The notes beneath the pieces were generated by a model. That model saw nothing but the letters and a program-made list of their open reading frames with translations, had not been told where the DNA came from and did no database searches. Positions 6,449-32,260 of a DNA stretch of 44,605 nucleotides are shown here, piece after piece. A program made the position numbers and the translations under genes. The DNA is from Thiofilum flexile DSM 14609. GTDB lineage: Bacteria; Pseudomonadota; Gammaproteobacteria; Thiotrichales; Thiotrichaceae. Numbering within the stretch: the first letter of the stretch is position 1; every line of letters begins with the position of its first letter. The stretch spans positions 1 through 44,605 of the forward strand of contig NZ_KB904764.1 of the NCBI RefSeq assembly GCF_000380185.1, given 5' to 3'.

Positions 6449-8305
6449 ATGAAATTTGCGATTGTCTCCTCCACTTTACCGGGTGATTTACCAGAAAAGT
6501 TACAAGCCGCTGCTAGGGCTGGATTTCAGGCCGTAGAGATTTTCGAGAAGGATTTACTGTATTCCGATAAATCACCTCAAGAATTACGTGAGTTAGCCGC
6601 TGAACTAGGTTTAAGTTTAATCAGTTTACAACCCTTTAGTGATTTTGAAGGGCTGCCTGCCGAGCAACGCAGCAAAGCCTTGCAACGCGCCCAGCGTAAA
6701 TTTGACCTCATGCAAAAATTGGGTATTAAACGCCTGATTGTGACGAGTTCCACCCATCCACAAGCCAGTGCTGAGCTAAGCCATATGGCACGGGATTTAG
6801 CGGAGCTAGCGGATTTAGCCGCAGAGCAGGGGCTAGAGTTGGCGTATGAACCTTTGCCGTGGGCGACGCATATTCGGGATATTGAAGCGGCCTTTGCCGT
6901 GATTCAACAAGCCAAACGCAGCAATTTAGGTCTAGTGTTAGATAGTTTTGCGTTTTTTGCCCGTGATACTGCACTGCATGCCTTAACTCCGGCCTTAGTC
7001 GAGCGCGTGATGCTAGTACAACTAGCCGATTCACCTAGCACTACTATTGACCTGCAACAAATAGACCGCCATTTTCGTTGCCATGCAGGGCAGGGTATTT
7101 TGCCGCTCGTGAGTTTAGTCAAGCAGCTACAAGCCTCCAGTTTTAACGGGATTTTCTCGCAAAAAGTACCCTGTGAAGAGTTTCGCGCCAGTAATCCCTA
7201 TCAAATTGCCCGTAATGGTTATCGCTCTTTGCAATGGTTAATCAAGCAAGCCGAGGCAGAACCTCAGCCGCAGGAGTCTTTAGTCTCTAGCATTGAGTTT
7301 GTCGAATTAGCCAGCCAAGGCGGGGAGGCGAATTGGCTAGAGCAATTATTACTGGCTTTAGGTTTTCGTAAAACCCATCAGCATCGTAGTAAAGAAGTAG
7401 CACTCTATCGGCAGGGGCAGATTAATTTCCTAGTGAATCGTGAGCCAGATAGTTTTGCCAATGCGTATTATGATCGGCATGGTACGGCAGTGTGTGCCCT
7501 TGGTTTAGGATCGCAACAGCTAGCGCAAGTGGTGGAGAATTGCCGTGAATATCGCTGTGATTTTGTGCAGTCACCACATTTACCCGATGAAATGACTTTG
7601 CCAGCGATTCGTAATGTGGGTGATGGTTTACTGTATTTGGTTGATACGGCTCAGGTCGCGCGGTTTTTTGAAGTCGATTTCATCCCTTTGCCTAATGAGT
7701 CCGTGAATCCTGTGGGTTTTGGCCTCACTCGCATTGATCATATTACTCAGGCGGTATCTTCAACCGAGTTTTTGGCGGTGATTCAATTTTATCAAATTTT
7801 ATTTGGGCTAACGGCTAATGCGGAGTATGACCTCATTGATCGCAATGGTATTGTGCATAGCCGCTCTTTAATTAATGCGGATCATAGTGTGCAATTCCCG
7901 ATTAATACCTCCCATTCGCGTGAATCCTCGACCGAACGTTTTCGAGTGGGCTTATCTGGTTCAGGGGTGCAACATATTGCTTTACAATGTGAAGATATAT
8001 TTGCAGTTGCCAAGCAATTAAATCCTAATCATATCTTACCAATTTCACCGAATTACTATGAAGAGGTTCAAGCCGATTTTCTATTAGACGATGCCTTAAT
8101 TGAGCGCCTACGAGCCTATAATATTCTCTATGATATGAATGAGCAGGGTGAATTTTTCCATATTTATACTCGCCATATAAATGGTCTATTTTTTGAAATC
8201 GTCCAGCGTAATAACTATCAAGGTTTCGGTGAAAGAAATGCCGCCGCACGTTTAGCCGCTCAAGCACGGGAGTATCAACGCATGCGAGAGCTGTTATTGG
8301 TTTAG
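6449..8305 (+). CDS. Bifunctional-type sugar-phosphate isomerase-like (3-dehydroshikimate dehydratase)/4-hydroxyphenylpyruvate dioxygenase-like protein
   Basis: I place the start at ATG 6449 (618 aa), with AGGA nine bases upstream; an in-frame TTG at 6407 has no support. The N-terminal half is a TIM-barrel of the xylose-isomerase-like family (MKFAIVSSTLPGDL, residues 1-270) with metal-site segments AYEPL, GLVLDSF and VQLADSP. The C-terminal half (about 285-610) is a vicinal-oxygen-chelate HPPD-like domain. It keeps three iron-ligand segments: GLTRIDHIT, GVQHIALQ and GLFFEIVQR. This fusion is known from QuiC-type 3-dehydroshikimate dehydratases, which make protocatechuate. The segment where these enzymes usually carry the fourth metal Glu reads FSQKVPCEEF here, with Lys at the aligned site, so dehydratase activity is less certain. 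It lies downstream of a MATE pump and near an aromatic dioxygenase. Confidence 0.82.
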   Translation: MKFAIVSSTLPGDLPEKLQAAARAGFQAVEIFEKDLLYSDKSPQELRELAAELGLSLISLQPFSDFEGLPAEQRSKALQRAQRKFDLMQKLGIKRLIVTSSTHPQASAELSHMARDLAELADLAAEQGLELAYEPLPWATHIRDIEAAFAVIQQAKRSNLGLVLDSFAFFARDTALHALTPALVERVMLVQLADSPSTTIDLQQIDRHFRCHAGQGILPLVSLVKQLQASSFNGIFSQKVPCEEFRASNPYQIARNGYRSLQWLIKQAEAEPQPQESLVSSIEFVELASQGGEANWLEQLLLALGFRKTHQHRSKEVALYRQGQINFLVNREPDSFANAYYDRHGTAVCALGLGSQQLAQVVENCREYRCDFVQSPHLPDEMTLPAIRNVGDGLLYLVDTAQVARFFEVDFIPLPNESVNPVGFGLTRIDHITQAVSSTEFLAVIQFYQILFGLTANAEYDLIDRNGIVHSRSLINADHSVQFPINTSHSRESSTERFRVGLSGSGVQHIALQCEDIFAVAKQLNPNHILPISPNYYEEVQADFLLDDALIERLRAYNILYDMNEQGEFFHIYTRHINGLFFEIVQRNNYQGFGERNAAARLAAQAREYQRMRELLLV

Positions 8306-8470
8306 TTGAGGGGGTTTAAGTGATGATTATCCTCTAGCATACTCCAAACGGTAGATTATTTAATAAGATGATAATCAAAAGCTATATAAAATCATATACT
8401 TATTTTTAGGTCTTTTAGGCGGAATCGATGCATCTATCCAATGATGATTTTTATAAGAATTTAAGGTTCT

Positions 8471-8493
8471 AGCGTTTGATAAAACCAAACGCT
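8471..8493 (+). terminator. Hairpin with T-rich tail between two convergent genes
   Basis: AGCGTTTG-ATAAAAC-CAAACGCT forms a perfect 8-bp stem with a 7-nt loop, followed on the plus strand by CTTATTTTA. It sits just before the convergent stop at 8503 and 165 nt after the preceding plus-strand stop. It fits an intrinsic terminator for the plus-strand unit. The 8306-8470 stretch holds nothing else I can recognise. Confidence 0.6.
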
Positions 8494-8502
8494 CTTATTT
8501 TA

Positions 8503-9078
8503 CTACACAGATTGAGATTCCACCAACGCACCCTTTTCATCAACATCAAATCCAAAAAAATCATGCAAAAGAATCAATGCTTTTGCTTTATTACTGGGGT
8601 CTGCCTCATACCTATAAGGAATTATAGTGTAGTTGATAATTGCATTAAATAGGCTATCCTTGACTTCTTTTGTTGGCTGAGCATTTAGCCATTTTTCAAT
8701 AATAGATAAAGATCGCGTATCCCTACAACCACCCAACCACTCAGAAATTAAAAACCGTGCCAAGTCATTAGCAATATAACCAAAGTTTTCTTCTATTACA
8801 GATAATAATATATGGTATTGTTCTTCCGACCCATCACTTACTTCTAAAATAAACTGAAAGATTTCCCATAAATATTTATCCTTATTTGGAGTCAATTTAT
8901 AAAAAGCACCTATTAGACATTTAAATATCCGGTCACTCCAACCCCAACCTCCATTGGAAGATGTGAATTCCTTATCAATATACAATCTATAAAGATCATC
9001 AACTGCCAAATCCCATTGTTCATGTTCAAGTTCATAGCAGAGTCTAAGCCTTTGTTCTTGATCCAAATTATTCTGCAT
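8503..9078 (-). CDS. Hypothetical protein, helical, immunity-like
   Basis: I do not recognise this 191-aa protein. It is acidic, soluble and predicted mostly helical, without signal peptide or membrane segments. It contains a Trp/Gly-rich turn (SSNGGWGWSD, about residues 40-49) and a regular run of helices resembling a small HEAT-like fold. ATG at 9076-9078 has no strong ribosome site. The gene is AT-rich compared with its neighbours and sits alone next to a decayed gene. This is common for orphan immunity genes of polymorphic toxins, but no toxin is adjacent, so that role is a guess. Confidence 0.6.
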   Translation of the reverse strand: MQNNLDQEQRLRLCYELEHEQWDLAVDDLYRLYIDKEFTSSNGGWGWSDRIFKCLIGAFYKLTPNKDKYLWEIFQFILEVSDGSEEQYHILLSVIEENFGYIANDLARFLISEWLGGCRDTRSLSIIEKWLNAQPTKEVKDSLFNAIINYTIIPYRYEADPSNKAKALILLHDFFGFDVDEKGALVESQSV

Positions 9079-9186
9079 AATATTTCACAGCTAGGTTCTA
9101 AAACGTACTACAGACCATTATACGCATTTGTAAGTTAAGAAAAATCGTGATATAGTTGATTGGCTATGCCCCAAATACGGTCTATT

Positions 9187-9593
9187 TTAAAAGGTATTTC
9201 TGGGTGAATGGTTAGCGTAAAACCAATCTGTATGAATGTCATATATGTCAGTGTCTTTACTATGAGGATAGATTAATAAACTATATCCTATTAAAATGCC
9301 TCTATTAAAGAGTTCTACTTTGTAAGCCAGTCCATCATTATTATATTTATAATCATATCTATGCAATTCCTCATTTAAATTGTTTCTTTCTATCCGTGAA
9401 AGAAAAATTCCACTATTTTCATCACAAATATACTGTTAAGTTGGTCATCTAAATATAAGCTGCTAATTGGTTCGCCACTGGTATCATACTCATGCATGAC
9501 ATCCAAAAATATAGTCTTGTCTTCTTTAAACTATATTGTTCGCAAAATATTTTGATTAGAGTCAATAATTTCTACATCTCCTTGTAAGTACTT
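9187..9593 (-). pseudogene. Decayed hypothetical gene (in-frame stop plus frameshift)
   Basis: No intact ORF exists here, but the minus strand reads as protein in pieces. One piece near 9530-9580 reads DVEIIDSNQNILRTI then TAG, and continues in the same frame with FKEDKTIFLDVMHEYDTSGE and ISSLYLDDQLNS. A shift of one base is then needed near 9425 to continue as DENSGIFLSRIERNNLNEEL and on to HTDWFYANHSPRNTF and a stop at 9187. The coherent composition over more than 100 residues points to a former gene. Its 5' end is unclear. It could be a relic immunity gene next to the 8503 gene. Flanking stretches 9079-9186 and 9594-9815 hold no gene. Confidence 0.55.
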
Positions 9594-9694: not shown

Positions 9695-9815
9695 TCTTTA
9701 GTATGATACTAGCCCTGTTAGTAGCCAACCTGCCTACATCTTAGTTGAAAAATGCTGAGGTTTATATCATCCTTGCGCGTTTTCTGCTTGGCTTAGCTGA
9801 AGGGAACTCAGATCC

Positions 9816-12800
9816 GTGCGTTTAGTTAAGATCCGCATTGCGGGCTTTAAAAGTTTTGTTGACCCCATGACTCTTGATTTGCGTAGTCCATTGGTGGGTA
9901 TTGTAGGCCCTAATGGTTGCGGTAAATCGAATACCATTGATGCGGTGCGTTGGGTGATGGGTGAAAGCTCGGCTAAGCACTTGCGTGGGCAATCCTTAGA
10001 TGACGTAATTTTTAATGGCTCCGCCGCCCGTAAACCCGTAGGACAAGCCTCGGTTGAATTAGTGTTTGATAATTCAGCGGGCAAACTAGGGGGCGAATAC
10101 GCGCAATATCAAGAAATTGCTATTAAGCGGGTGGCGAGTCGTGATGGTAAGTCTACCTATTATTTAAACAACACCCGTTGTCGCCGCCGTGATATTACCG
10201 ATATTTTCCTAGGCACCGGCTTAGGGCCGCGTAGTTATGCCATTATTGAGCAAGGCATGATTTCACGCCTGATTGAGGCTAAACCCGAAGAACTGCGCAC
10301 GACTTTAGAAGAGGCGGCGGGTATTTCACGTTATAAAGAACGGCGGCGTGAAACCGAATCTCGTATTAGCCACACCCGCGACAATTTAGAGCGCCTCAAT
10401 GACATTCGCTTAGAGGTCGCTAAGCAACTCACTAAACTCGAAAAACAAGCCGCTGCGGCAAATCAATATCAAACCCTACGCACCGATGAGCAACAGCTTA
10501 GTGCTCAAGTGCTGCTATTACAATTAGAGGCATTAGAGCAAGCCGAGCGTGAGCAATTAGAGCACTTAAGTACCTGTTCTGAGCGTTATAAATCTCAGTG
10601 GCAAGTCGTACAGGAGCTAGAGCAATTAGTCGAGCAACTACGTGAGCAGGTCAAAGAGGCGAATCAGCAATTTAATCAGGTACAAGGTGAGTATTACGAA
10701 GCCGGAGCGGTGATTGCCCGTTTAGAGCAGCAATTACGCCATCAAAAGGATCTCAAAGAGCGCCAACAACAATCCTTAACCCAATTAGAAACCGCCTTAG
10801 CCGAAGCTCAAACGCATCAAGCGGAAGATTTAGCCGCCTTAGCACACTGTCAAGCCGAAATTACTAACCTGACCCCACAACTACCACGCTTAGAGCAACA
10901 GCGCCAAGAACTAGACCGTGACTATAGCCAAGCGCAGCAGGCTTTAAATACTTGGCAACAGGCTTGGAATACATTACAAGCCGAGATGGAAACTCCCACC
11001 CGCACCGTACAAAGTGAGCAAGCAAAACTAGGCCAATTAGAGCGTCAGCAAATACAACAACAGCAGCGCCACAGCCGTTTAGAGCAGGAGCTGAGTGCTT
11101 TAACAGCAACAGATAGCGCTGAGGAGCAGGCTCTATTAAGCGAAGTCCTAGAAGAAACGAAGCAGCGTCGCATTGAGTTAGAAACCGAACTAAGCGCGAT
11201 GCAGACGGCAATCCCGGAGCAACGTAGCCAAGTACAAGCCTTACAAACTCAATTAGCCCAGCTACGCCTAAGCTATGAGCAGACCCAAGCCCAATGGAGT
11301 GCCTTAACCACGCTACAACAAGCGCAATTGCATAATGACTCCAGCGAGCGTCAACAGTGGTTGGGCCATAAGGGTTGGCAGTCCGCCCCACGTCTAGCGG
11401 AGCTATTAAAGGTAGAGCTAGGCTGGGAAGTAGCGTTGGAAACGGTGTTGAGTGAAGTCTTGGATGCCGTTTGTATTGAGCAGCTCCAGCGCCAGATTGA
11501 TAGTGGTTGGCCTAAGCAGGGGGTGGGGTTATTACAAACACGCGGGGAGGCTATTAAACTAGCACCCCTCGGCGAGCTAGTGCCTTTAGCGCAAAAAGTG
11601 ATTGAGCCATTGACCCTGCAGGATCAGCTCGCAGTTATCTATTGTGCGGATTCTTTGGCGGAGGCTTTTCAATATCGCGCTCAATTACAAGCCGGGCAAT
11701 CGATTATTACCCCTGATGGTTTTTGGTTAGGACAGTATTGGCTGAAATCTCCTAAAGCAGAGTTACAAGAATCGAGCACCTTGCAGCGCCAGCAACGGAT
11801 TATCGAGCTACAGGCGACTATTCAAACCCAAGAACAACAATTGAATACTTGCCAGACTGAACTCACAGCAGCACAACAGCGACTCCATGATACTGAGCGT
11901 CAGTCACAAACCCTGCAAACTGATCTGAATCAACTGCATCGTAGTGAAGCTAAGCAAACGCAGGCACTCTCGACCTTTCTCCAACAACAACAGCAATTGA
12001 CACAGCAGCGTCAACGTATTCAGCAAGACCTAAATGAGGTGCAGCAATTTATTGAAGAGTATCAGTGGGAGGCACAAGAGGGACGTGAAAATCTCTTAAC
12101 CGCACAATTAGCCTTAGAGTCATTAAGCACCGAGCGTCAGCGACTCCAAGCACAACAAGCACAGTTACAAGCAACTTTTGAGCAAATACAAGCCCAGCGT
12201 CAGGCCGCACAAAACGACTATCAACAGTTAGTGCTAAAGTTAGACTCTTGGCAAACCCAACTCATTGAACGTAATAAACAATTAGAACGTGTTACGCAAC
12301 GCCTAAATACCCTAAAAGAGCAGCAGGCACAATTACACAGTAGTTTACAGGCGCAAGCCGAGCCAATGGATGAGTGGCAAGCCGAACTGACGGAAGCAAT
12401 GGAGGCTAAGGCTTTAGTCGAGCTACGTTTACACAGTGCGCGTCAGGCGATGGAGCAGACCGAGCAAGCCGTACTAGAGCAGGATCGCAAGCGCTTACAA
12501 GCCGAGCAGTTACTCGAAAAAATTCGCTCCGAACAAGAGCAATTAAAATTGTCATGGCAGACTCTACAAGTTAAAGCTCAAGATCTAGGCGAGCAATTTC
12601 AGCAGCTAGATCTTGAGCGGGAAATATTACGTCAAGCGATGGGTGAGGAGAGTCTGCAAGGATTACAAGAGCGCCTGAATCAAATACGGGTGGCGATTAG
12701 TAAATTAGGTGCTATTAATTTAGCAGCGATTGAGGAGTTTCAGCAATTAACCGAGCGCAAGGCGTATCTCGATACTCAATACACCGATCTGACCCAAGCA

Positions 12801-19572: not shown

Positions 19573-20641
19573 TATTTATGTGTTCGCTCAAGTTTGTCCA
19601 CCCTTAATAATCTCACCACCAGTCAAACTTGGAGTAGCTTTGGTGAGATAGAGAGCTATAGCGCTAGTCACACTATTGTAAGTAACCTTGGTGATCTCAC
19701 AGTGGACTATGTCATCGATGGTCAAGATCGCCGCATCGGTAAAAAGGTCAATGGCGTACTCAAACAAGGCTTTCTGTATCAAGATCAACTCAATCCGATT
19801 GCCGAACTAGACGGCTCTGGTAATGTCATCGCTCGATTTGTCTACGCCGATAAGGGCAATATACCGGCTTATATGATTAAAGGTGGCAACACCTATCGGA
19901 TTATCTCGGATTATCTCGGATCATCTGGGCAGCCCGCGTTTGGTGGTTAATGCCGGAACGGGCGAAGTGGCTCAACGCGTAGAGTACGATGTGTGGGGCA
20001 AGGTGGTGAGTGACAGTAATCCTGGCTTCCAACCCTTTGGGTTTGCGGGTGGGTTATATGACCAGCATACGGGGTTCGTACGCTTTGGAGCGCGGGATTA
20101 TGACCCAGAGACCGGGCGCTGGACGGCGAAAGACCCGATACGGTTTGCCGGTGGTGATACTAATCTGTATGGGTATGTGGCGAATGATCCGGTGAATTTT
20201 GTGGATGTGAATGGAATGATAAGCGCTTTGTGCGAGGCTTTACAAAAAATTAATAACCTACAGCAAGAGCAAATGAAAAAAGGGGGATCTATTTTCAATG
20301 ATTTTGATCCCTTGACTATGGTTACTCATGAACAAGATTTTCTAAGTGCTGCGGGAGTTAGTAACTTTACAGTAGATGGTGTTGATTTGCAGTATACGGT
20401 TGTTACTCATGGTTTTGCTGAGAGAACTCATGGAGCGGGAGCTGTAGTTGCTACTATTGGATTTGGTTATTATTCCACATTAGGCTCTGCTGTCTCAGCT
20501 TACAGGAGAGGAGTGGGTTTTGATGGTTGGCTGGATGATGCAGCTGCTGACTTGAGAGGCTCAAATTTAGGTGTTGAAATTTGGGCTAGTGGAGGGCTTT
20601 CTGAGTATTTAAAGTCTAATTGTTCGGATTGCAATAAATGA
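19573..20641 (+). pseudogene. Rhs/YD-repeat protein 3' portion with polymorphic toxin tip, split by a frameshift
   Basis: The frame opens right after the stop at 19572 without a convincing start codon. It encodes the late Rhs core ([36 protein letters not shown]). A tandem duplication of ten bases shifts the frame after ISD. The alternative frame resumes with [59 protein letters not shown] and [11 protein letters not shown]. This is the classic junction where the core ends and a variable toxin tip begins. The tip (about 20213-20641, 142 aa) is AT-richer, with [15 protein letters not shown] and [19 protein letters not shown]; its family is not recognised. The upstream Rhs body is missing. It is probably an orphan or silent tip cassette. 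Its stop overlaps the next gene by 4 bp (ATGA). Confidence 0.85.
19898..19917 (+). repeat. Perfect 10-bp tandem duplication causing the Rhs frameshift
   Basis: GGATTATCTC occurs twice back to back, followed by GGATCATCTG. Removing one copy restores a continuous Rhs frame reading [12 protein letters not shown]. Because the unit is not a multiple of three, gain or loss by slipped-strand mispairing switches the toxin-bearing frame on or off. Confidence 0.85.
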
Positions 20642-21952: not shown

Positions 21953-22291
21953 TTAGGCTGCATGGCGTTGTGCAATAGCCTTTCGTATTTCAGGAGGTAA
22001 AATACCTAAGCTTATTTTATCTTTCGGAATACCACATGCGATTAGTGCATTATCCAACTCATCCTCGGTATTATTGGCCTGAATTACTATTTCATCCTCT
22101 TCAATGCTAATATGTATTAAGCAGATATGAATACGTTTTTGCCCGTACCACCCGATACGCATTACCATATAATGTGAGTGGTAATCATCAAACAGCATTT
22201 CAATACGAGTTTCTGGTGTATTTAGATCACCATACTCAGAGAGCAAATTTTTTATACAAGTTTGATAATAGTTTAAAGTGGATGAATCCAT
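21953..22291 (-). CDS. xisI: XisI-family protein
   Basis: This 112-aa protein matches the XisI family (fdxN element excision controlling factor). Recognisable segments are YYQTCIKNLLSEYG at the N-terminus, ETRIEMLFDDYHSHYMVMRIGW and IHICLIHISIEEDEIVIQ, then the GIPKDKISLGILPPEIRK end. XisI is small and soluble and always travels with XisH. In cyanobacteria the pair was linked to control of DNA element excision, but most copies occur without such an element. Its start overlaps the end of xisH by 19 bp, so the two are translated as a pair. Confidence 0.85.
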   Translation of the reverse strand: MDSSTLNYYQTCIKNLLSEYGDLNTPETRIEMLFDDYHSHYMVMRIGWYGQKRIHICLIHISIEEDEIVIQANNTEDELDNALIACGIPKDKISLGILPPEIRKAIAQRHAA

Positions 22292-22692
22292 TTCAAATCT
22301 CCCTCACCTAGAATCGAATAAACAATCAGCCTCATTTGTAATTTACTGATAACCATCTTACCAATAGCTTGAGAGAAAATACCTTCATAAGCATGTATCG
22401 GGATGGCAATATAAAGAATGCGATCAGGCTCGGATTCTTGTAATAACCAACGGTATAATTCATATTGCCCCATAGCTTTTTCTAATTCTGAAACTTGCGA
22501 ATCACGCAAAAAGCTTTTTATTTCCACAGCAATTTTCTCATTGCCGCGTGTGGCAGCTATGGGGCGCTCTGCACCTAAATCAGTTGATAATTCTGGTTCA
22601 CTCCGAAAGCTCAAAGGATCATGGGTAATCTGCCAACCTTCAAGAATAAGCGCATTTTTTACAATGTCATGATACCTATCACGACGCGACAT
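22273..22692 (-). CDS. xisH: XisH-family protein, PD-(D/E)xK-like fold
   Basis: A 139-aa protein of the XisH family: it begins SRRDRYHDIVKNALILEGW. It carries a nuclease-like signature (D..L, GAERPIA... then AVEIKSF; the pattern D-x(n)-ExK at about residues 38-59) typical of the restriction-endonuclease-like fold, followed by LYRWLLQESEPDRILYIAIP. It forms an overlapping pair with xisI. Position within Rhs and transposase debris fits a mobile accessory module. A toxin-antitoxin-like or defence role is speculation; an excision partner is not visible. Confidence 0.85.
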   Translation of the reverse strand: MSRRDRYHDIVKNALILEGWQITHDPLSFRSEPELSTDLGAERPIAATRGNEKIAVEIKSFLRDSQVSELEKAMGQYELYRWLLQESEPDRILYIAIPIHAYEGIFSQAIGKMVISKLQMRLIVYSILGEGDLKWIHPL

Positions 22693-22767: not shown

Positions 22768-22912
22768 GTTGAGTGACAGTAACTCCAGCTTTGGTCTTGC
22801 TGGGGGATCGTATGACCAGCATACGGGGTCAGTACGCTTTGGAGCACGGGATTATGATCCAGAGACTAGGAGCTGGACAGATCAAACTTATAGGGATGCA
22901 GCAGCTTTCTGA
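22768..22912 (+). pseudogene. Rhs core remnant abutting leuA
   Basis: The frame reads [20 protein letters not shown] and then [19 protein letters not shown], and runs to TGA at 22910-22912. Nucleotides closely match the Rhs core at about 20004-20125 (same GTATGACCAGCATACGGGG block). The fragment has a short deletion, and its last bases overlap the leuA 3' end by 25 bp. It is a third Rhs piece, showing that the metG-leuA gap has repeatedly received Rhs DNA. Just upstream, 22751-22768 forms a perfect hairpin (CTACGC-GAGATA-GCGTAG). Confidence 0.8.
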
Positions 22913-25361: not shown

Positions 25362-25760
25362 TTAGCTGCTAATTTTGCTCTTCAAGTATTCTTTTAAGCT
25401 GGGAAAGATTACTCTTTTTTCTCCATCAACCCATTCATATATTTCCCCATCTTCTTTTTGTAGTATCAGTAAACCTTCTACACCTGTATTTTCCAAAACA
25501 ATAGAGTTTTTTGGAAAGGAGGCATTTCTTTGAATTTCTTTTAGTGTAACACTTACAACATTGGCATAACTATCAATATTCAAACCTGTTAATTCTGTAG
25601 AGCCAAATGATATTGCTCCAAACTGAGAAAGATATTTTTTATAGTCATCAGCAAAACGTAAGTTTAGCTGCCTTTCAGCTTCAGCAATAAGTTCATCGGA
25701 AGCTCCTTTTGTTTTGTATAATTTGAATTTTTCTTCAATAGCTTTGATTATATTATGCAT
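25362..25760 (-). CDS. SMI1/KNR4 (SUKH)-like immunity protein
   Basis: I start this at ATG 25758-25760 (132 aa), preceded by GGAGAGC; the longer in-frame start lies inside the toxin gene. SUKH-like features: the early helix IIKAIEEKF, then GASDELIAEAERQLNLRFAD and DYKKYLSQFGAISFGSTELT, then GLLILQKEDGEIYEWVDGEK near the C-terminus, followed by FPSLKEYL. SUKH proteins neutralise diverse nuclease toxins. The ATG lies within the toxin's stop region (8-bp overlap), so toxin and antidote are made together. It is the last gene of the five-gene operon. Confidence 0.85.
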   Translation of the reverse strand: MHNIIKAIEEKFKLYKTKGASDELIAEAERQLNLRFADDYKKYLSQFGAISFGSTELTGLNIDSYANVVSVTLKEIQRNASFPKNSIVLENTGVEGLLILQKEDGEIYEWVDGEKRVIFPSLKEYLKSKISS

Positions 25761-26424
25761 TTTGCTCTCCAGCATGTGCTCTTGACTTCCAGTGTGTGCT
25801 TCGTTCATTGTGAAATGCAACGCGGTCTATTTCAGATTCTTTTTTAGTATCGTGTAATATAGCATTGTTTTCTTTTCCTCTATGTTCGTTAGGAGTCAAT
25901 TCGGCAAGAGGACCATCATTCTTCTGTCCGATATGGTGTAACTCAATAGCATCCCCCTCTTGAGTAATGGGAGAAAGACCTGCCTCTGCTCTTTCTCGAT
26001 TGCTACGCCCCATAGAGTCTTTCTTTTCCCAATCAATATCATTTTTTACCAAACATTTTCTACCATTTATTTCGATCTCTTGAAGGTTAGCATTTTTATA
26101 TATTTCATATTCTTTCATTGATCTGATTGCATCAATCAATTCATTAGACCAACCTGTTTCATTTCTTATTTGTTGCTTTTCTTCATGTGTCAGTCCCCTA
26201 GTCTCTGAGTTTGAATAGTCCCTTATTTCGGTTTGCTCATGAGCACTAGTTTCTATAGCTTGAAGGGTATTTTGTATTCTTAAGCTTTCTAGTGAAGTGT
26301 TCTCGATTGTTTCAAGACTCAGTTGTAGTGGTGTTTCATTCGTGTGCTTAATGGTTGTTTCTTTTAGAGCTTCGCTGATAGGCTCAATACCTTTGTGTAT
26401 AATAGCACTGAGGTGTTCAAGCAT
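25753..26424 (-). CDS. LHH-type HNH/Endo VII nuclease toxin
   Basis: A 223-aa protein. The C-terminal nuclease domain (about 118-220) contains ING-RKCLVKNDIDW, then the diagnostic LHH (162-164) in AIELHHIGQKNDGPLAELTP, then EHRGKENNAILHD. These match the LHH branch of the HNH/Endonuclease VII superfamily found at the ends of polymorphic toxins. The N-terminal half (1-115) is helical, Glu/Thr-rich and carries none of the usual delivery domains (no Rhs, WXG, PAAR or signal peptide seen). It overlaps HerA upstream by 8 bp (ATGCTTGA) and the SUKH gene downstream by 8 bp. I infer a DNA- or RNA-cleaving effector. Confidence 0.85.
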   Translation of the reverse strand: MLEHLSAIIHKGIEPISEALKETTIKHTNETPLQLSLETIENTSLESLRIQNTLQAIETSAHEQTEIRDYSNSETRGLTHEEKQQIRNETGWSNELIDAIRSMKEYEIYKNANLQEIEINGRKCLVKNDIDWEKKDSMGRSNRERAEAGLSPITQEGDAIELHHIGQKNDGPLAELTPNEHRGKENNAILHDTKKESEIDRVAFHNERSTHWKSRAHAGEQNA

Positions 26425-29400
26425 GGGCCTGCTCCATATGATTTAGAATCTTTTGAGAAATATTTTTTATCACTTCTTTGTTTTTCGATAATAAGAATGA
26501 TGAAATGATACGTTCAATTTCCAATAAGTTAATCTCTAATTGATGTTGATATAAATAGCGAATCGTTAAGCTCTTAATAATCTCTTCAATGAAGTGATTT
26601 GCCGAAGCAGGTCTCCATAAAATGCTCAAGATATCAACTAGTTTTGCCTTGGATTCTTCACTGGGGTTTATAGAAATATTAAGAAGCGTTGTTTTTAAAT
26701 TACTAGGAATGGGGTTCTTGCGGCAATAAATGCCTTTATTTAGCAATACCATGACTTGTAAAGAAAAATAATCCGCAAACAATAAATTGTCTATTTGATA
26801 TGGAATGTCTTTTAAAGTTAATTGTTTTTTTAATTCATCTTTAGCTAAGTCTATTAGCTTAGTTAGATCATTGGATTGAGATATTATGATTGAGTTTAGT
26901 AGTTTAATAGCTAACTCTTTTCCTGCTTCTCCAATTAATGAGCTGATCTGATAAGCTTGATAACTATGTAAAGGTTTATGCAAAGATACCATTGATCTTT
27001 TGATTTTATCGTCACTTATTGCATGAGAGAGAACATCACTGAAAATAGCACACTCTACTGGACGTCCCATTCCCTCTTTATGACATAGTGCATGCCCGGT
27101 ATTGAGCCTGTTTAGATAAAGTGCATCATGATCATCTATACTCAAAGAAGCTGCTAATAGTGATTGATCATCTTTTGAAACTAGGCGATGAACAATTTTG
27201 GTATTGGAGTTTTTGATCACGTCAAGAGAGATTTTTGAGGGTATTTGCTCAACAACGGCAACACCTTGACCTAAAGATCGCATTTCAGCAAGAATATTGC
27301 AGAAAACCTCAACTGCCTTACCTTTTGGATTACCCATCATCTCGGTTGATCGTTCGGTTTCAATATTTTTAAGTAGCCGATGTGCCTCCTCAATAACCAT
27401 AAAATGACGTAAGCCTTTGTTGCCTATTCCTGGATTTACGGCTGGATTTTCTTTTTGTCGATATTCGCTGATCAGTACTAGAGTCAATCCAACAAAAAAG
27501 GCTTTATCATCGTCATCTGCAAGGCTTTCCATCTCAAGAATAGTATTTTTTGACAGAAGTTTTTCTATTGAGAAGCAGTCATGTGTATTGAACATTAAGC
27601 CTTTTGCACCAACACACAGACTTTCAAGTCGCACAATAATGGCAGTACGAATATTATCCCGCAGCTCTCCTTTGTAGTCGAGTTCTGTCTTGATATAATG
27701 ATCAACTTCATCTTTTAGATCTGCTAATGTTGGAAAGCAATAAAAATGCTCTTCAAATTGGTATCGTGCTATATCATAGTTACCTTTGCTATCAATAAAA
27801 TTAGGATGGATTCCTAAGGTTAAATCCCAGCCTTTTTTGATATATATGGAGTGCAAACATTTTTCAACAATACTGGGCATAGGGCCATAAAGTGAAAAGC
27901 TGGCATTAAAGATAGCTTTCAGATAATCAATATGTACTAGTGGGTGAACACCTTCCTGAATATAAAAAGGATTGAGCCGGATTGGACTGACAGTTGCATC
28001 TCCGATGGTAAATATATTTAGATTCTCTTTGAAAACATCATTTGCTAAAAGTTGTCGATAGTCTCGTTTAGCAGACTCTAATACCAAGAAAGGTATGGAT
28101 TTTTTTTGAGCAAGGTTTTTTAAAATATGTTTGACCGTGGTGGTCTTTCCGCTTCCTGTTAAACCACAAACGAAAAGATGCTTATTTAAATCACTTTCAG
28201 ATAGATAAATATGAGCACCTTGAATCGGATTGCCATGATCAGAAATAGAGCCTAAAACTAAATCAGCGCTGCTGCTAATATCGGTCAATGCAAGAGCAGG
28301 CATTTTTTGAATTTCATAACCTGGTATTGATTCTATGGGGGGAGAGGATACATAGGATAATTCTTCACTGGTAATGTATGAGGCCAATGATTTAGGAAAA
28401 AGGGTATTGGCGGAGCTGATTTTTGATATAAAAAGAGTTTTGTTTTCAAGAGCATCTAGATAAATACGTGGAGGAGGTAGTAGCTTATCATCTGGTTTTG
28501 AAAGCTCCCCTGCCAAAGTACCAGCTAAAATATTACTGGTGATCTTATCGTGAGTAGCAAAAGTGATTGATGTCTCCCAATAGCCTGAGCCAAACCCCTG
28601 TATCATTCTTTCGATATAGTGACTTGCGATTTTCTCTAGCTCTAAGGCATAACCGTTTTGCTGTTCAATGGAAAGGGATTGAGATTGGTTTTCTGAAAAA
28701 GTATTCGTGTTGGCCTTAGATATACTTTCGGTTTCTGTACTTGACTTATTATATGAATGATTGACGACAATACTCATAAAGCCAGTACTAGATCCATCGG
28801 TTTTTGATGTTCCACTGGTGGTAGTATTGGTTTCAGACACAGAGGTTCCTGAACCTTTGGTTTCACCCACCGTCTGTTTTGCTAGTATATGTAAACTATC
28901 CCTCATCTGGATTAATTCATGGAGAGATCGTTGCTTTTCAATCTCAGAAACGGGTTTAGAGAGGATTGCAAGTAAATATTCTTTTCCATAAAGGCTCCGG
29001 GTAACAGAGCATAAATTGAATTTTTGCTTCTTATTTTCTTTTTGCAGTGCTGGTACACCCGTTACCATACCACCATAATGGTATCCTCCGGCAAGAGAGG
29101 ATAGATTGATAGTTTCATCAAACCTAATCTTTTTTCCCGGCAAAATGCCGTTCACAATAGATTCAAAAAGCTCCGGAGCATTTTCAGTGAGAGACTCACT
29201 TTTGAGTCCAATAAAAACTCGGCTCTTACCGTTTTTACTGCTAAGTATGAGAGCTACTGATAATCCAGAATGACTTGCTGCTGCTAGTATATTCTGAAAG
29301 CGTTCATTAATGAATTGAGGAATATTTTCGTAATCAGCATTGACAGAGATTTCGCTTAAGGGAAAAAGGTAGTAGCTATCAAGGTAGCTGGTAGGGTCTT

Positions 29401-29521
29401 GTTCGGTCTGTGTTTTTAATATGTTTTTATCGATAAAAGACCACCACGGAACAAGCTTTTGTGAGGCTTCAACAAGAGCTTGTTGGCTATTTTGTGCTGG
29501 AGTGAGGGCTGTTTTATTCAT
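26417..29521 (-). CDS. HerA/FtsK-superfamily ATPase (DUF87-like) with Ser/Thr-rich insert
   Basis: A 1034-aa protein. The N-terminal domain (1-210) includes FPLSEISVNADYENIPQF and a GGYHYGGMVTGVPAL element. A strikingly low-complexity Ser/Thr/Asn segment follows (about 220-290, starting GETKGSGTSVSETNTTTSGT). The ATPase core then has Walker A FVCGLTGSGKTTTVKHIL (about 451-468), a LESAKRDYRQLL element, and Walker B FMVIEEAHRLL (about 708-718). Next come NILAEMRSLGQGVAVVEQIP (sensor/arginine-finger region) and GHALC. The C-terminal 150 residues are helical. Such hexameric ATPases pump DNA or protein. No nuclease (NurA) partner is adjacent; the partners are a dynamin pair and a toxin. It overlaps both neighbours by 8 bp. 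Confidence 0.85.
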   Translation of the reverse strand: MNKTALTPAQNSQQALVEASQKLVPWWSFIDKNILKTQTEQDPTSYLDSYYLFPLSEISVNADYENIPQFINERFQNILAAASHSGLSVALILSSKNGKSRVFIGLKSESLTENAPELFESIVNGILPGKKIRFDETINLSSLAGGYHYGGMVTGVPALQKENKKQKFNLCSVTRSLYGKEYLLAILSKPVSEIEKQRSLHELIQMRDSLHILAKQTVGETKGSGTSVSETNTTTSGTSKTDGSSTGFMSIVVNHSYNKSSTETESISKANTNTFSENQSQSLSIEQQNGYALELEKIASHYIERMIQGFGSGYWETSITFATHDKITSNILAGTLAGELSKPDDKLLPPPRIYLDALENKTLFISKISSANTLFPKSLASYITSEELSYVSSPPIESIPGYEIQKMPALALTDISSSADLVLGSISDHGNPIQGAHIYLSESDLNKHLFVCGLTGSGKTTTVKHILKNLAQKKSIPFLVLESAKRDYRQLLANDVFKENLNIFTIGDATVSPIRLNPFYIQEGVHPLVHIDYLKAIFNASFSLYGPMPSIVEKCLHSIYIKKGWDLTLGIHPNFIDSKGNYDIARYQFEEHFYCFPTLADLKDEVDHYIKTELDYKGELRDNIRTAIIVRLESLCVGAKGLMFNTHDCFSIEKLLSKNTILEMESLADDDDKAFFVGLTLVLISEYRQKENPAVNPGIGNKGLRHFMVIEEAHRLLKNIETERSTEMMGNPKGKAVEVFCNILAEMRSLGQGVAVVEQIPSKISLDVIKNSNTKIVHRLVSKDDQSLLAASLSIDDHDALYLNRLNTGHALCHKEGMGRPVECAIFSDVLSHAISDDKIKRSMVSLHKPLHSYQAYQISSLIGEAGKELAIKLLNSIIISQSNDLTKLIDLAKDELKKQLTLKDIPYQIDNLLFADYFSLQVMVLLNKGIYCRKNPIPSNLKTTLLNISINPSEESKAKLVDILSILWRPASANHFIEEIIKSLTIRYLYQHQLEINLLEIERIISSFLLSKNKEVIKNISQKILNHMEQAHA

Positions 29522-30158
29522 TTGATTTTCCCTCTAATATAAAGCCGTGAGTTGAGCAAAAGTGATGAAAATCACTTTCAAAGGCTATTCCAACTTTTTC
29601 TAGCCACTGAAGTACCTGTTCTTGAGCGGATGCGAGGTATTTATCTATATCGATCTGGATGCTTTCACGGGCTTTTTCCTGATTAAGATAAAAACCAAAA
29701 GCATAAGCCGATAACAGAATAGTAACTATTCCTGCAACAATGCCTAAAACGACATTTACGGTTACAGTGCCAAGAATAAAATTAAGCCCACTGAGAATTA
29801 AGCTCTGTTTTAGTTGACGATCATGTAAATATCTTACAATATCGGGTTCTAGTGCAATTTTATTTTCTAGTTGCTTAGTCCATTCATGGACTCGTTTACG
29901 GAAATCAGCATCAAAAAATGCATTTTGTAGTTGGATATCGGCACCTTTTATCCTCTCCCGTGCATCAGCCATAAGGTAATTTAGCTGTGTGTCTAAAAGA
30001 ACCTCTGTTTTGTAAACAATCTCTTTAGGAATATGTGTTTTTAGGAAATTTTTGGTTTGATCGACATTGAAGCCAGGTTTTAAATATGTCTGCTGTAACG
30101 TACTTTTGAGGTTTGAAAATTCAATCATGACATCTTTTTTGATATTGTTCTGATTCAT
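29514..30158 (-). CDS. Helical membrane protein partnering the dynamin-like GTPase
   Basis: A 214-aa protein with long amphipathic helices at the N-terminus (about 1-120) and two closely spaced hydrophobic segments (about 124-165, LILSGLNFILGTVTVNVVLG and IVAGIVTILLSAYAFGFYL). A helical C-terminus follows. No enzyme motif is visible. Its start overlaps the dynamin gene by 4 bp (ATGA) and its end overlaps HerA by 8 bp (ATGAATAA). I read it as a membrane anchor or assembly factor of the operon, perhaps a non-GTPase dynamin partner. No family is assigned. Confidence 0.75.
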   Translation of the reverse strand: MNQNNIKKDVMIEFSNLKSTLQQTYLKPGFNVDQTKNFLKTHIPKEIVYKTEVLLDTQLNYLMADARERIKGADIQLQNAFFDADFRKRVHEWTKQLENKIALEPDIVRYLHDRQLKQSLILSGLNFILGTVTVNVVLGIVAGIVTILLSAYAFGFYLNQEKARESIQIDIDKYLASAQEQVLQWLEKVGIAFESDFHHFCSTHGFILEGKSNE

Positions 30159-32260
30159 TTTATATCCTCCAATACTTCTATGCAGCGTAACTTCTCTGGC
30201 TGAATATCCTTTTTTTTTCTGTCTAGCTCTTTAATTTCTATAATTATGTCTTCATTAGATTGTTTTTTTGTTTTCTCTGCTTCAAGTGCTTCCTGTCGAT
30301 CACTAATCACTGAATCCATTTCTTTTGAAAAGTCGTTTAAGTAGGTATTGAGAATTTCTTTGGATTTATTCGGTATGATATTGATAATACTAGAAAGCTC
30401 ATTGCTACATTGGTGTCGGTATTCCTCAAGGTGTTTTTTTTCATCAAACACATCTCTTGTACCTACTTGTATTTTTTTCTTAAAAGCTTTAGCTCCTCCT
30501 GCTCCTGCAGCAGCTCCTGCTGATGCTATACCGAGATAGGCTAAAAATCCAAAAGGCCCAGTTGTAAGAGTAGCTATTATCCCAGCTACTGCCAAAGCTG
30601 CACCTGTAGCTCCTAAGATCGTTTTTGTTCCATCTATTTTATCCTCATAAATAGCTTCTTTATGAAAGGCTTTTGCCTTTGCATTTTCCTCTAAAGCCTG
30701 CAGATCGATCATTTTAGGAGTAGATATTTGGTATTCTGATTTGAATTGCTTGCCTGCCTCATCAAGAGCCTTTGTAAGATTTTTTGTTAATTCCATCGAA
30801 AAATCATCGATCTTTTTCTCTACGTCATTGAGAGCATCGAGAGTATTTTTTCTGGTAATTTCAATATTGTTGCTTTCTGCAATGAGTGTAATATATTTCG
30901 TTTTTAGCGTATCGATATCTTTTTGCCACGACGAGTGTCTACCAGAGTAGTTGGATTCCAGATCTTCTCTAGTTTCTCTGGTTAGAAGCTTATACTTCTC
31001 AAGAGCTGCATTAATACGGTTTATTTCTTCTTCAAACTGCTGGGGATTGACCTTCTTCTTTTCTAGTCTCTCCGTTTTTTCGGTATAGAGATTTTCCTGT
31101 TCTTCGTATCCCTCCTTAATTTTTCTCAAAATTTCTTGCAGTTGTAGATTGGGTGCTTTCATGGAAAACTCATCGACTGCAGCAAACATTTTCTCAAATC
31201 GAGAGCCTTCATAAACAATATCAATTAAATCTCGTTCTTCCTTCTCTGCTTGTTCGAGATACTCATAAAGTATTTTCTTTTTATTGTTAGATTTCTGGAT
31301 TTCTTTAACAGAAATACCATTATTAAGATCACAGTGAATTAACTTAAGCAAACTGTCCACAACCAGAATGCGATTTTCGGGTATTATATTGTGGTATAGT
31401 CGATTAGCTTCCTTATGTAATCTATCCACATCATCATTTGAGTAAAGTCCAGCATGGGTTAAAATAAGAAAAAGTGTCTCTCTACTGCGGTTAGAGATGG
31501 TAGAATTGACAAATTTTCTAAAAGATTCGGACTCAATCGGTTTGATTTGGTGTACAAATAAAATAGCATCGGCTTGTTCAAAAAACTGGAATGAAACATT
31601 CTGGACACCACCGGTTGCATTGACTCCCGGACTATCAACAATGCGAAGCTCGTCAAATTCCCACTTCAAGGGGTAACCAAAATCAATCTCTACCGGAATT
31701 TTATCTTTAGTTCTTTCGGAAATAAATTTTTCAATTACCTTATGTTTACCCTGAAGTTGTTCGCTGGATTTTTGTTCTAGTTGCCTTATAAAATCCTCAT
31801 CAACTTTTAAGACGTCAGCACTTGCAATAATACAATCATCTATCAGGGGGGTTGGTATTTCACGATACTCATCATGGATTTTGCATATTTCATGCAGTCG
31901 TGCTTTTGCATTAATACCGAGACTAGTCAATTCGTCAGAAATGCTTTCTATGGTTCCATCAGCATATTTGACTCTTAGGGAGGGAGTTTCTGATTTGAAT
32001 ATTTCTACGATAGTACTAGAAGATTGAAGTACATCAGAAGGAAGAAGTTCGGTACCTAAAAGCGCGTTAATAAATGTTGATTTACCAGCCTTCACTTCTC
32101 CGGCTATCGCTAGAGTAAATTTCCCATTTTTTAATGATTCAACCCTGTTTTCAAGAAAATTGATTTTAACACCATCATTAGTATCACCTCTTTTAATTTT
32201 ATAATTATTAAAAAGATCAATTACATTGTCTTTATGAGCTTTATAGTGCTTACCAATCAT
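30155..32260 (-). CDS. Dynamin-like GTPase
   Basis: A 701-aa protein, first gene of the operon; ATG 32258-32260 follows AAGGAATAACAA. G1 is GEVKAGKST (54-62), with a following TxxINALLG and SSST switch region. G3 is DSPGVNATGG (209-218). At the G4 position LTHAGLYSND replaces the canonical TKxD. After the GTPase domain comes a long coiled coil (about 375-500), a hydrophobic hairpin (547-592, Gly/Ala-rich, ending GAKAFKKK) and a C-terminal helical part. This is the bacterial dynamin-like protein layout: a membrane-inserting, self-assembling mechanoenzyme. A membrane remodelling or sealing role is inferred. Confidence 0.9.
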   Translation of the reverse strand: MIGKHYKAHKDNVIDLFNNYKIKRGDTNDGVKINFLENRVESLKNGKFTLAIAGEVKAGKSTFINALLGTELLPSDVLQSSSTIVEIFKSETPSLRVKYADGTIESISDELTSLGINAKARLHEICKIHDEYREIPTPLIDDCIIASADVLKVDEDFIRQLEQKSSEQLQGKHKVIEKFISERTKDKIPVEIDFGYPLKWEFDELRIVDSPGVNATGGVQNVSFQFFEQADAILFVHQIKPIESESFRKFVNSTISNRSRETLFLILTHAGLYSNDDVDRLHKEANRLYHNIIPENRILVVDSLLKLIHCDLNNGISVKEIQKSNNKKKILYEYLEQAEKEERDLIDIVYEGSRFEKMFAAVDEFSMKAPNLQLQEILRKIKEGYEEQENLYTEKTERLEKKKVNPQQFEEEINRINAALEKYKLLTRETREDLESNYSGRHSSWQKDIDTLKTKYITLIAESNNIEITRKNTLDALNDVEKKIDDFSMELTKNLTKALDEAGKQFKSEYQISTPKMIDLQALEENAKAKAFHKEAIYEDKIDGTKTILGATGAALAVAGIIATLTTGPFGFLAYLGIASAGAAAGAGGAKAFKKKIQVGTRDVFDEKKHLEEYRHQCSNELSSIINIIPNKSKEILNTYLNDFSKEMDSVISDRQEALEAEKTKKQSNEDIIIEIKELDRKKKDIQPEKLRCIEVLEDIK

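Follow-up and report, generated by a model that had tools for sequence, protein, structure and literature searches.

One-sided decay of the xisHI gene pair is consistent with a nuclease held in check by its partner

The stretch of DNA analyzed here (the window) comprises 44,605 nucleotides of contig NZ_KB904764.1 of Thiofilum flexile DSM 14609 and carries an adjacent pair of genes, xisH and xisI (Table 1). By family and fold membership, the window XisH fits PF08814 and the window XisI fits PF08869, and together they form an intact and unexceptional representative of a known family. Both the gene positions and the 19-bp overlap given by the original prediction were borne out, and both genes lie on the minus strand. 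The TG of the xisI start codon is borrowed from the TGG codon of xisH that specifies the invariant W135. Housekeeping genes surround the pair (those for methionyl-tRNA synthetase and isopropylmalate synthase, smc and zipA), and ZipA is a gammaproteobacterial mark.

Table 1. Positions of the xisHI pair and of the repeats that surround it in the window
Feature	Position	Strand	Remarks
Rhs-like fragment, first copies of direct repeats D3 and D1	20007..20124	+	TEN_YD-shell match below cut-off
xisI	21953..22291	-	112 aa; PF08869, 96.2 bits (cut-off 25), 2e-27; C-terminus RHAA
xisH/xisI overlap	22273..22291	-	19 nt; xisI ATG at 22291-22289, xisH TGG (W135) at 22290-22288
xisH	22273..22692	-	139 aa; PF08814, 159.6 bits (cut-off 25), 6.1e-47, profile 1-128 of 134
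Second copies of direct repeats D3 and D1, far side of xisHI	22770..22878	+	repeat comparison

The overlap between the two genes is seen in all 115 distinct adjacent xisH-xisI pairs and measures 13 nt in 98 of them; the sole selection applied to these pairs was a junction within 60 nt, and the earliest possible xisI start always lies inside xisH. Across the same pairs, XisH distances and XisI distances are correlated (r = 0.73; best of 500 shuffles, 0.12), which is no more than would be expected for any co-inherited partners. In Lyngbya, transcript mapping placed a single start site upstream of xisH, accompanied by putative LexA and IHF sites, and xisI on the same transcript (PMC2674450).

The pair had been placed in mobile debris. 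What remains of this description is a 90-nt Rhs-like repeat on each side of xisHI (20035-20124 and 22789-22878, 84% identity); as to the rest, a Pfam scan of 20 window proteins revealed no transposase or integrase. Also on the minus strand, 3 kb from xisHI, positions 25362-26424 encode an HNH nuclease domain of the LHH family (PF14411), and a SUKH-type immunity gene comes next and overlaps it, making a second toxin-immunity-like pair. Next to it (26417-32260, minus strand), three genes overlap in succession, encoding a HerA-like ATPase of 1034 aa, a protein of 214 aa to which Pfam has no match, and a dynamin-like GTPase; they match the PADLOC models mad8/HerA and LeoBC and form a possible defense operon. 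Elsewhere in the genome, which comprises 71 contigs and has a stated completeness of 100%, a second locus (C33:294-1024) is an intact xisHI pair, and at a third (C35:208405-208875) the core of xisH is lost, leaving about the first 25 codons and the tail, beside an xisI that is open over 144 aa.

The D...ExK pattern that had suggested a nuclease is confirmed as D38 and E57-I-K59; D38, E57, K59 and Q76 occur without exception in the 60 XisH that were aligned. A Planctomycetales XisH from outside this alignment (L119:10001-10417), with an adjoining XisI frame, has lysine in place of E57 (AVKIK). A model folded from the 60-sequence alignment (pLDDT 90.3) matches the XisH structures 2okf and 2inb with Z = 21.1 each (2okf: 1.6 Å, 128 residues aligned). 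Outside the XisH family, it aligns with AF1548 (Z = 9.9, 3.1 Å, 115 aligned), EndoMS (Z = 9.2, 2.8 Å, 105 aligned) and the CdiA-CT toxin domain 4g6v (Z = 8.9, 3.6 Å, 109 aligned), and at lower Z with Card1, FokI and Hjc in a list that also contains some unrelated proteins; most of the non-family neighbors we take to be PD-(D/E)XK nucleases. As judged from this predicted model, XisH is a protein of the PD-(D/E)XK-type nuclease fold with its active-site residues kept.

The model of XisI, likewise folded from a 60-sequence alignment (pLDDT 93.5), matches 3d7q and 2nlv with Z = 16.2 each (3d7q: 2.5 Å, 106 aligned), and the solved relatives of the two proteins include structures from Anabaena and Nostoc. 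Beyond XisI entries, its best fold relative (Z = 4.8, 10.1 Å, 78 aligned) is uninformative either way, and a Pfam scan returns the XisI domain alone, with no recognized DNA-binding domain. The C-terminus of XisI is unusual in composition: It is alanine in 41 of 103 XisI representatives (less than 80% identical to one another), vs. 1 of 89 XisH and 76 of 862 background open reading frames of at least 200 aa. Alanine, glycine, serine or asparagine ends 85 of the 103 XisI vs. 262 of the 862 background frames, and -AA ends 12 vs. 10, an ending frequent in XisI subfamilies without the usual tail. The tmRNA tag of this genome ends in LAA. From sequence, this suggests that the XisI C-terminus might act as a degradation signal, which is only a lead since the usual tail is simply conserved.

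Sixteen long frames were listed (XisI, 204-312 aa; XisH, 158-292 aa). Two apparent natural XisH-XisI fusions (L110 and L119) proved to be frames read through in another phase. A Nostoc locus (G073:C26:330679-331440, i.e., L206:5680-6450) does hold XisH and XisI in one real open frame, in which the XisH end is probably frame-shifted. The sites in L191, L064, L040 and L046 were read along with those in L110 and L119 and yielded no convincing extra domain.

A toxin gene should not be maintained without its antitoxin gene, and xisHI behaves in this manner: In 83 genomes, 93 of 93 intact XisH lie beside an intact XisI, and 54 intact XisI lie beside a broken XisH or none. Not one of the 25 broken XisI (nine in the order set and 16 in a 20-genome set) is beside an intact XisH. 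Here, intact denotes one match that spans nearly the whole profile and contains no stop; for XisI, the match had to start by position 6 and end from 92 in the order set, and to start by 8 and end from 98 in the 20 genomes. The order set (63 genomes of the order to which T. flexile belongs, with XisH in 17 and XisI in 20) contributes 22 intact XisH, all with intact XisI, and 20 further intact XisI of which seven accompany a broken XisH and 13 no XisH, the third locus of T. flexile (C35) among these 20. The 20 further genomes (nine cyanobacteria and 11 others by title) were all picked because XisH is present. Among their 71 intact XisH, the partner is intact by threshold in 69, and in the remaining two, both from Chloroflexi, it is divergent yet full-length; 34 intact XisI lack an intact XisH (18 beside a broken copy and 16 without XisH), after removal of one XisI that was listed twice.

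A pooled Fisher test of this asymmetry gives p = 3e-10, a value that is too small since loci share ancestry. When weighted for length, XisH being longer than XisI, the asymmetry has p = 1e-5 in the order set and p = 0.02 at a site termed B. A broken XisH without any XisI occurs at 15 loci (two in the order set and 13 in the 20 genomes). Fourteen of these were re-examined: Thirteen are fragments or interrupted, two of them with weak XisI traces, and the other (G072:C89), an uninterrupted XisH, is cut off by the end of its contig, its partner beyond judging, and is excluded from the 93. At another locus of this genome (G072:C320, in L329), the end of a broken XisH is replaced just before a frame that, by eye, reads like a transposase. 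A C-terminal scrap of XisH lies directly upstream of six of the 17 single XisI tested (of 29 loci), such that at least these six are former pairs. An independent count comes from Thiomargarita, for which the section of PMC4853749 on these genes gives four xisH and seven xisI in one genome.

The same one-sidedness is evident at a single orthologous site, next to one conserved gene, in 16 genomes of a neighboring genus of the family. Both genes are intact in three genomes (G048, G050 and G055), XisI is intact and XisH broken or missing in seven, the reverse occurs in none, and neither gene is found in six. With XisI uninterrupted, XisH has a frameshift in G062, lacks its first 42 residues in G052, retains only its last 39 residues in G051, and is not found in G060 or G053, although the single XisI of G053 has no ATG at the usual place. 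G054 and G056 carry, on the opposite strand, a different xisHI lineage in which XisI is intact and XisH is disrupted by a nonsense codon and a frameshift, respectively. The six remaining genomes showed neither XisH nor XisI within the stretch fetched, the contig of G058 ending after about 2 kb. Because these lesions mostly differ, several must represent separate events. At a second site, G060 again keeps XisI without XisH, and G061 and G059 keep the pair. Directly upstream of xisH in G055 is a 1.4-kb insertion-like element (L232, about 7829-9252), of which that genome has about 20 near-identical copies.

We consider it probable (at roughly 0.6, and judging from sequence) that xisHI is a two-gene addiction pair resembling toxin-antitoxin systems, in which a PD-(D/E)XK nuclease is not tolerated without its partner. 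Under such a model, XisH would be toxic, its nuclease activity harming a target in its own cell, and XisI would keep it in check, most simply through direct binding. Loss of XisI would be lethal for as long as XisH works, and loss of XisH would cost nothing; once XisH is gone, XisI would last for a time and then decay too. Remnants show that xisH sometimes decays without losing its end, perhaps because the start of xisI lies within it. Excision of the fdxN element in heterocyst formers would then be a specialized use of one copy. The proposed layout of a toxin-antitoxin or defense pair is supported in its first half, through the nuclease fold, the overlap in 115 of 115 pairs and the one-sided decay, and unsupported in its second half, a small sample of 15 loci showing no clear defense enrichment.

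A scan of 84,980 species genomes returned at least 571 relatives. Among the 80 that resemble the query most closely, 26 have titles that place them outside cyanobacteria, including Desulfobacterota, Chloroflexi, Acidobacteria, KSB1, Planctomycetes, Poribacteria, Runella, Armatimonadota and Deinococcales. Carriage by phages and viruses is nearly nil, with no xisHI in 50,697 phage records and, in 2.9 million viral contigs scanned with a pattern, one relative among 20 pattern matches. Plasmids carry it in 38 of 72,556 records, and the 20 that were listed are cyanobacterial. Synonymous divergence of the second T. flexile locus (C33) from another genus is at least 1.0, such that coding constraint can explain the limited match, and we make no claim of recent transfer. 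Recent transfer of a compact mobile cassette, with homology over 741-812 bp, was considered and rejected: Some of the locus pairs are the same site in two genomes. In G047, repeats of 55-63 bp flank xisHI (L230, about 9764-9818 and 10691-10753) and are scattered in congeneric genomes.

The published role of the two proteins offers a different explanation, in which they are accessory factors of site-specific recombination, XisI as directionality factor and XisH as helper nuclease, that serve some other recombinase here. Both genes are required for the fdxN element to be excised in Nostoc PCC 7120, as cited in PMC4874684; this genetic requirement and the directionality-factor reading appear in PMC4874684, PMC4853749 and PMC5311408. 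Excision of the fdxN type calls for an XisF-type recombinase in the genome, but the T. flexile genome contains no match to PF07508, the family of large serine recombinases. We take XisF to belong to this family. That the pair occurs outside cyanobacteria and without such a recombinase, as had been predicted, is accordingly true (the zipA gene and the missing PF07508 matches both bear on it), although already in print and not new: In its passage on these genes, PMC4853749 finds no xisF homolog in Thiomargarita and cites Beggiatoa likewise. Nor does the pair keep company with such recombinases in the 20 further genomes, where a PF07508 match on the same contig is within 10 kb of none of 110 XisH match rows (one within 30 kb) and of one of 126 XisI rows, a short fragment (two within 30 kb), counts that cover large serine recombinases only and from which contig ends can hide neighbors. 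Six of these 20 xisHI-bearing genomes have no PF07508 match at all, and one genome has 18 XisH match rows. We therefore regard a recombination role as unlikely, and an addiction-type nuclease with its antidote is favored over an excision role here. Another explanation is a selfish cassette, in which XisH would cut empty sites and aid its own spread in the manner of a homing nuclease with XisI as regulator. Two congeneric locus pairs share similar xisHI (812 bp at 92.6% in L021/L036, 741 bp at 84.6% in L025/L026) with flanks that were compared and did not match; however, flank homology is also lost through divergence, the one locus tested revealed no empty site with matching flanks (in G059, the two flanks that border the G047 pair are separated), and XisH is a small single-domain protein. 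We find this explanation very improbable.

A module that acts against phages by killing or stalling the infected cell would share its nuclease fold with defense effectors such as Card1, Can2 and Cap4, and would fit with the many phyla that carry xisHI and with decay like that of a toxin-antitoxin pair. Yet the neighborhoods of 15 loci show no clear enrichment for defense relative to 15 control stretches, PADLOC families numbering 76 near xisHI vs. 159 in the controls, and XisH has no PADLOC or NCBIfam match; XisI matches PADLOC weakly and partially (E = 0.009). These comparisons cover 104 of 135 neighbor proteins (leaving out XisH, XisI and the frame L240:9794-10084) and 103 of 130 control proteins (the nearest seven per stretch, five in one), proteins longer than 700 aa being absent from both lists. 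What is in excess near the 15 loci is Uma2, in five of the 104 neighbor proteins vs. at most one of 103 in the controls (where it is absent from the best 25 families), and one toxin-antitoxin-like family pair, UPF0175 and DUF3368, with two each among the 104. Uma2, annotated as a putative restriction endonuclease, was seen in the neighborhoods L230-L244, and the part of PMC2674450 on Lyngbya reports it near xisHI as well. A defense role is possible but unsupported, and an anti-phage module in particular seems quite unlikely. The asymmetry itself would likewise be expected were XisI useful on its own and XisH functional only together with XisI, as might be suspected from the low dN/dS of single XisI at site B (0.03-0.20, in pairs including one). 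Toxins of addiction pairs are often fast-evolving, and the strong conservation of XisH (pairwise dN/dS of 0.01-0.08, few pairs computed) counts against the addiction reading.

For the interpretation of xisHI as an addiction pair, what is new as evidence is the pattern of decay; the interest is in the functional reading. We found no description of XisHI as a toxin-antitoxin pair in the open-licence papers searched, and the relevant portion of PMC11297309 names XisH and XisI among the domains of predicted eCIS-associated toxins of Moorena. The wider proposal, on which we are evenly divided, is that XisHI would be an unrecognized nuclease toxin-antitoxin family extending over many phyla, with the fdxN excision factors a domesticated member, such that the family would have been named after its exception. 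Many records label xisHI as excision factors, which can mislead outside heterocyst formers, and the genes are numerous, the 18 XisH match rows mentioned above being those of a single Nostoc genome. If they are addiction pairs, their role in nonheterocystous strains, an open question in the pages of PMC2674450 that concern it, becomes testable, and developmental excision would exemplify a toxin pair adopted by its host for a purpose of its own.

Three known systems bear comparison with xisHI. The XisH and XisI of the fdxN element of Anabaena and Nostoc (2okf, 2inb, 2nvm and 2nlv) match both proteins in sequence and fold, but the genome analyzed here has neither a PF07508 recombinase nor a heterocyst context. 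CdiA-CT/CdiI and other polymorphic toxin-immunity pairs with PD-(D/E)XK domains have a similar nuclease fold (4g6v) and a dedicated partner, whereas XisH stands alone, none of the longer frames read being a convincing fusion. Finally, although in xisHI the nuclease gene comes first and XisI is without a recognized DNA-binding domain, the pair resembles type II toxin-antitoxin systems with nuclease toxins in being a small pair of overlapping genes, in its nuclease fold, and in having a nuclease gene of which no intact copy was found to lack its partner.
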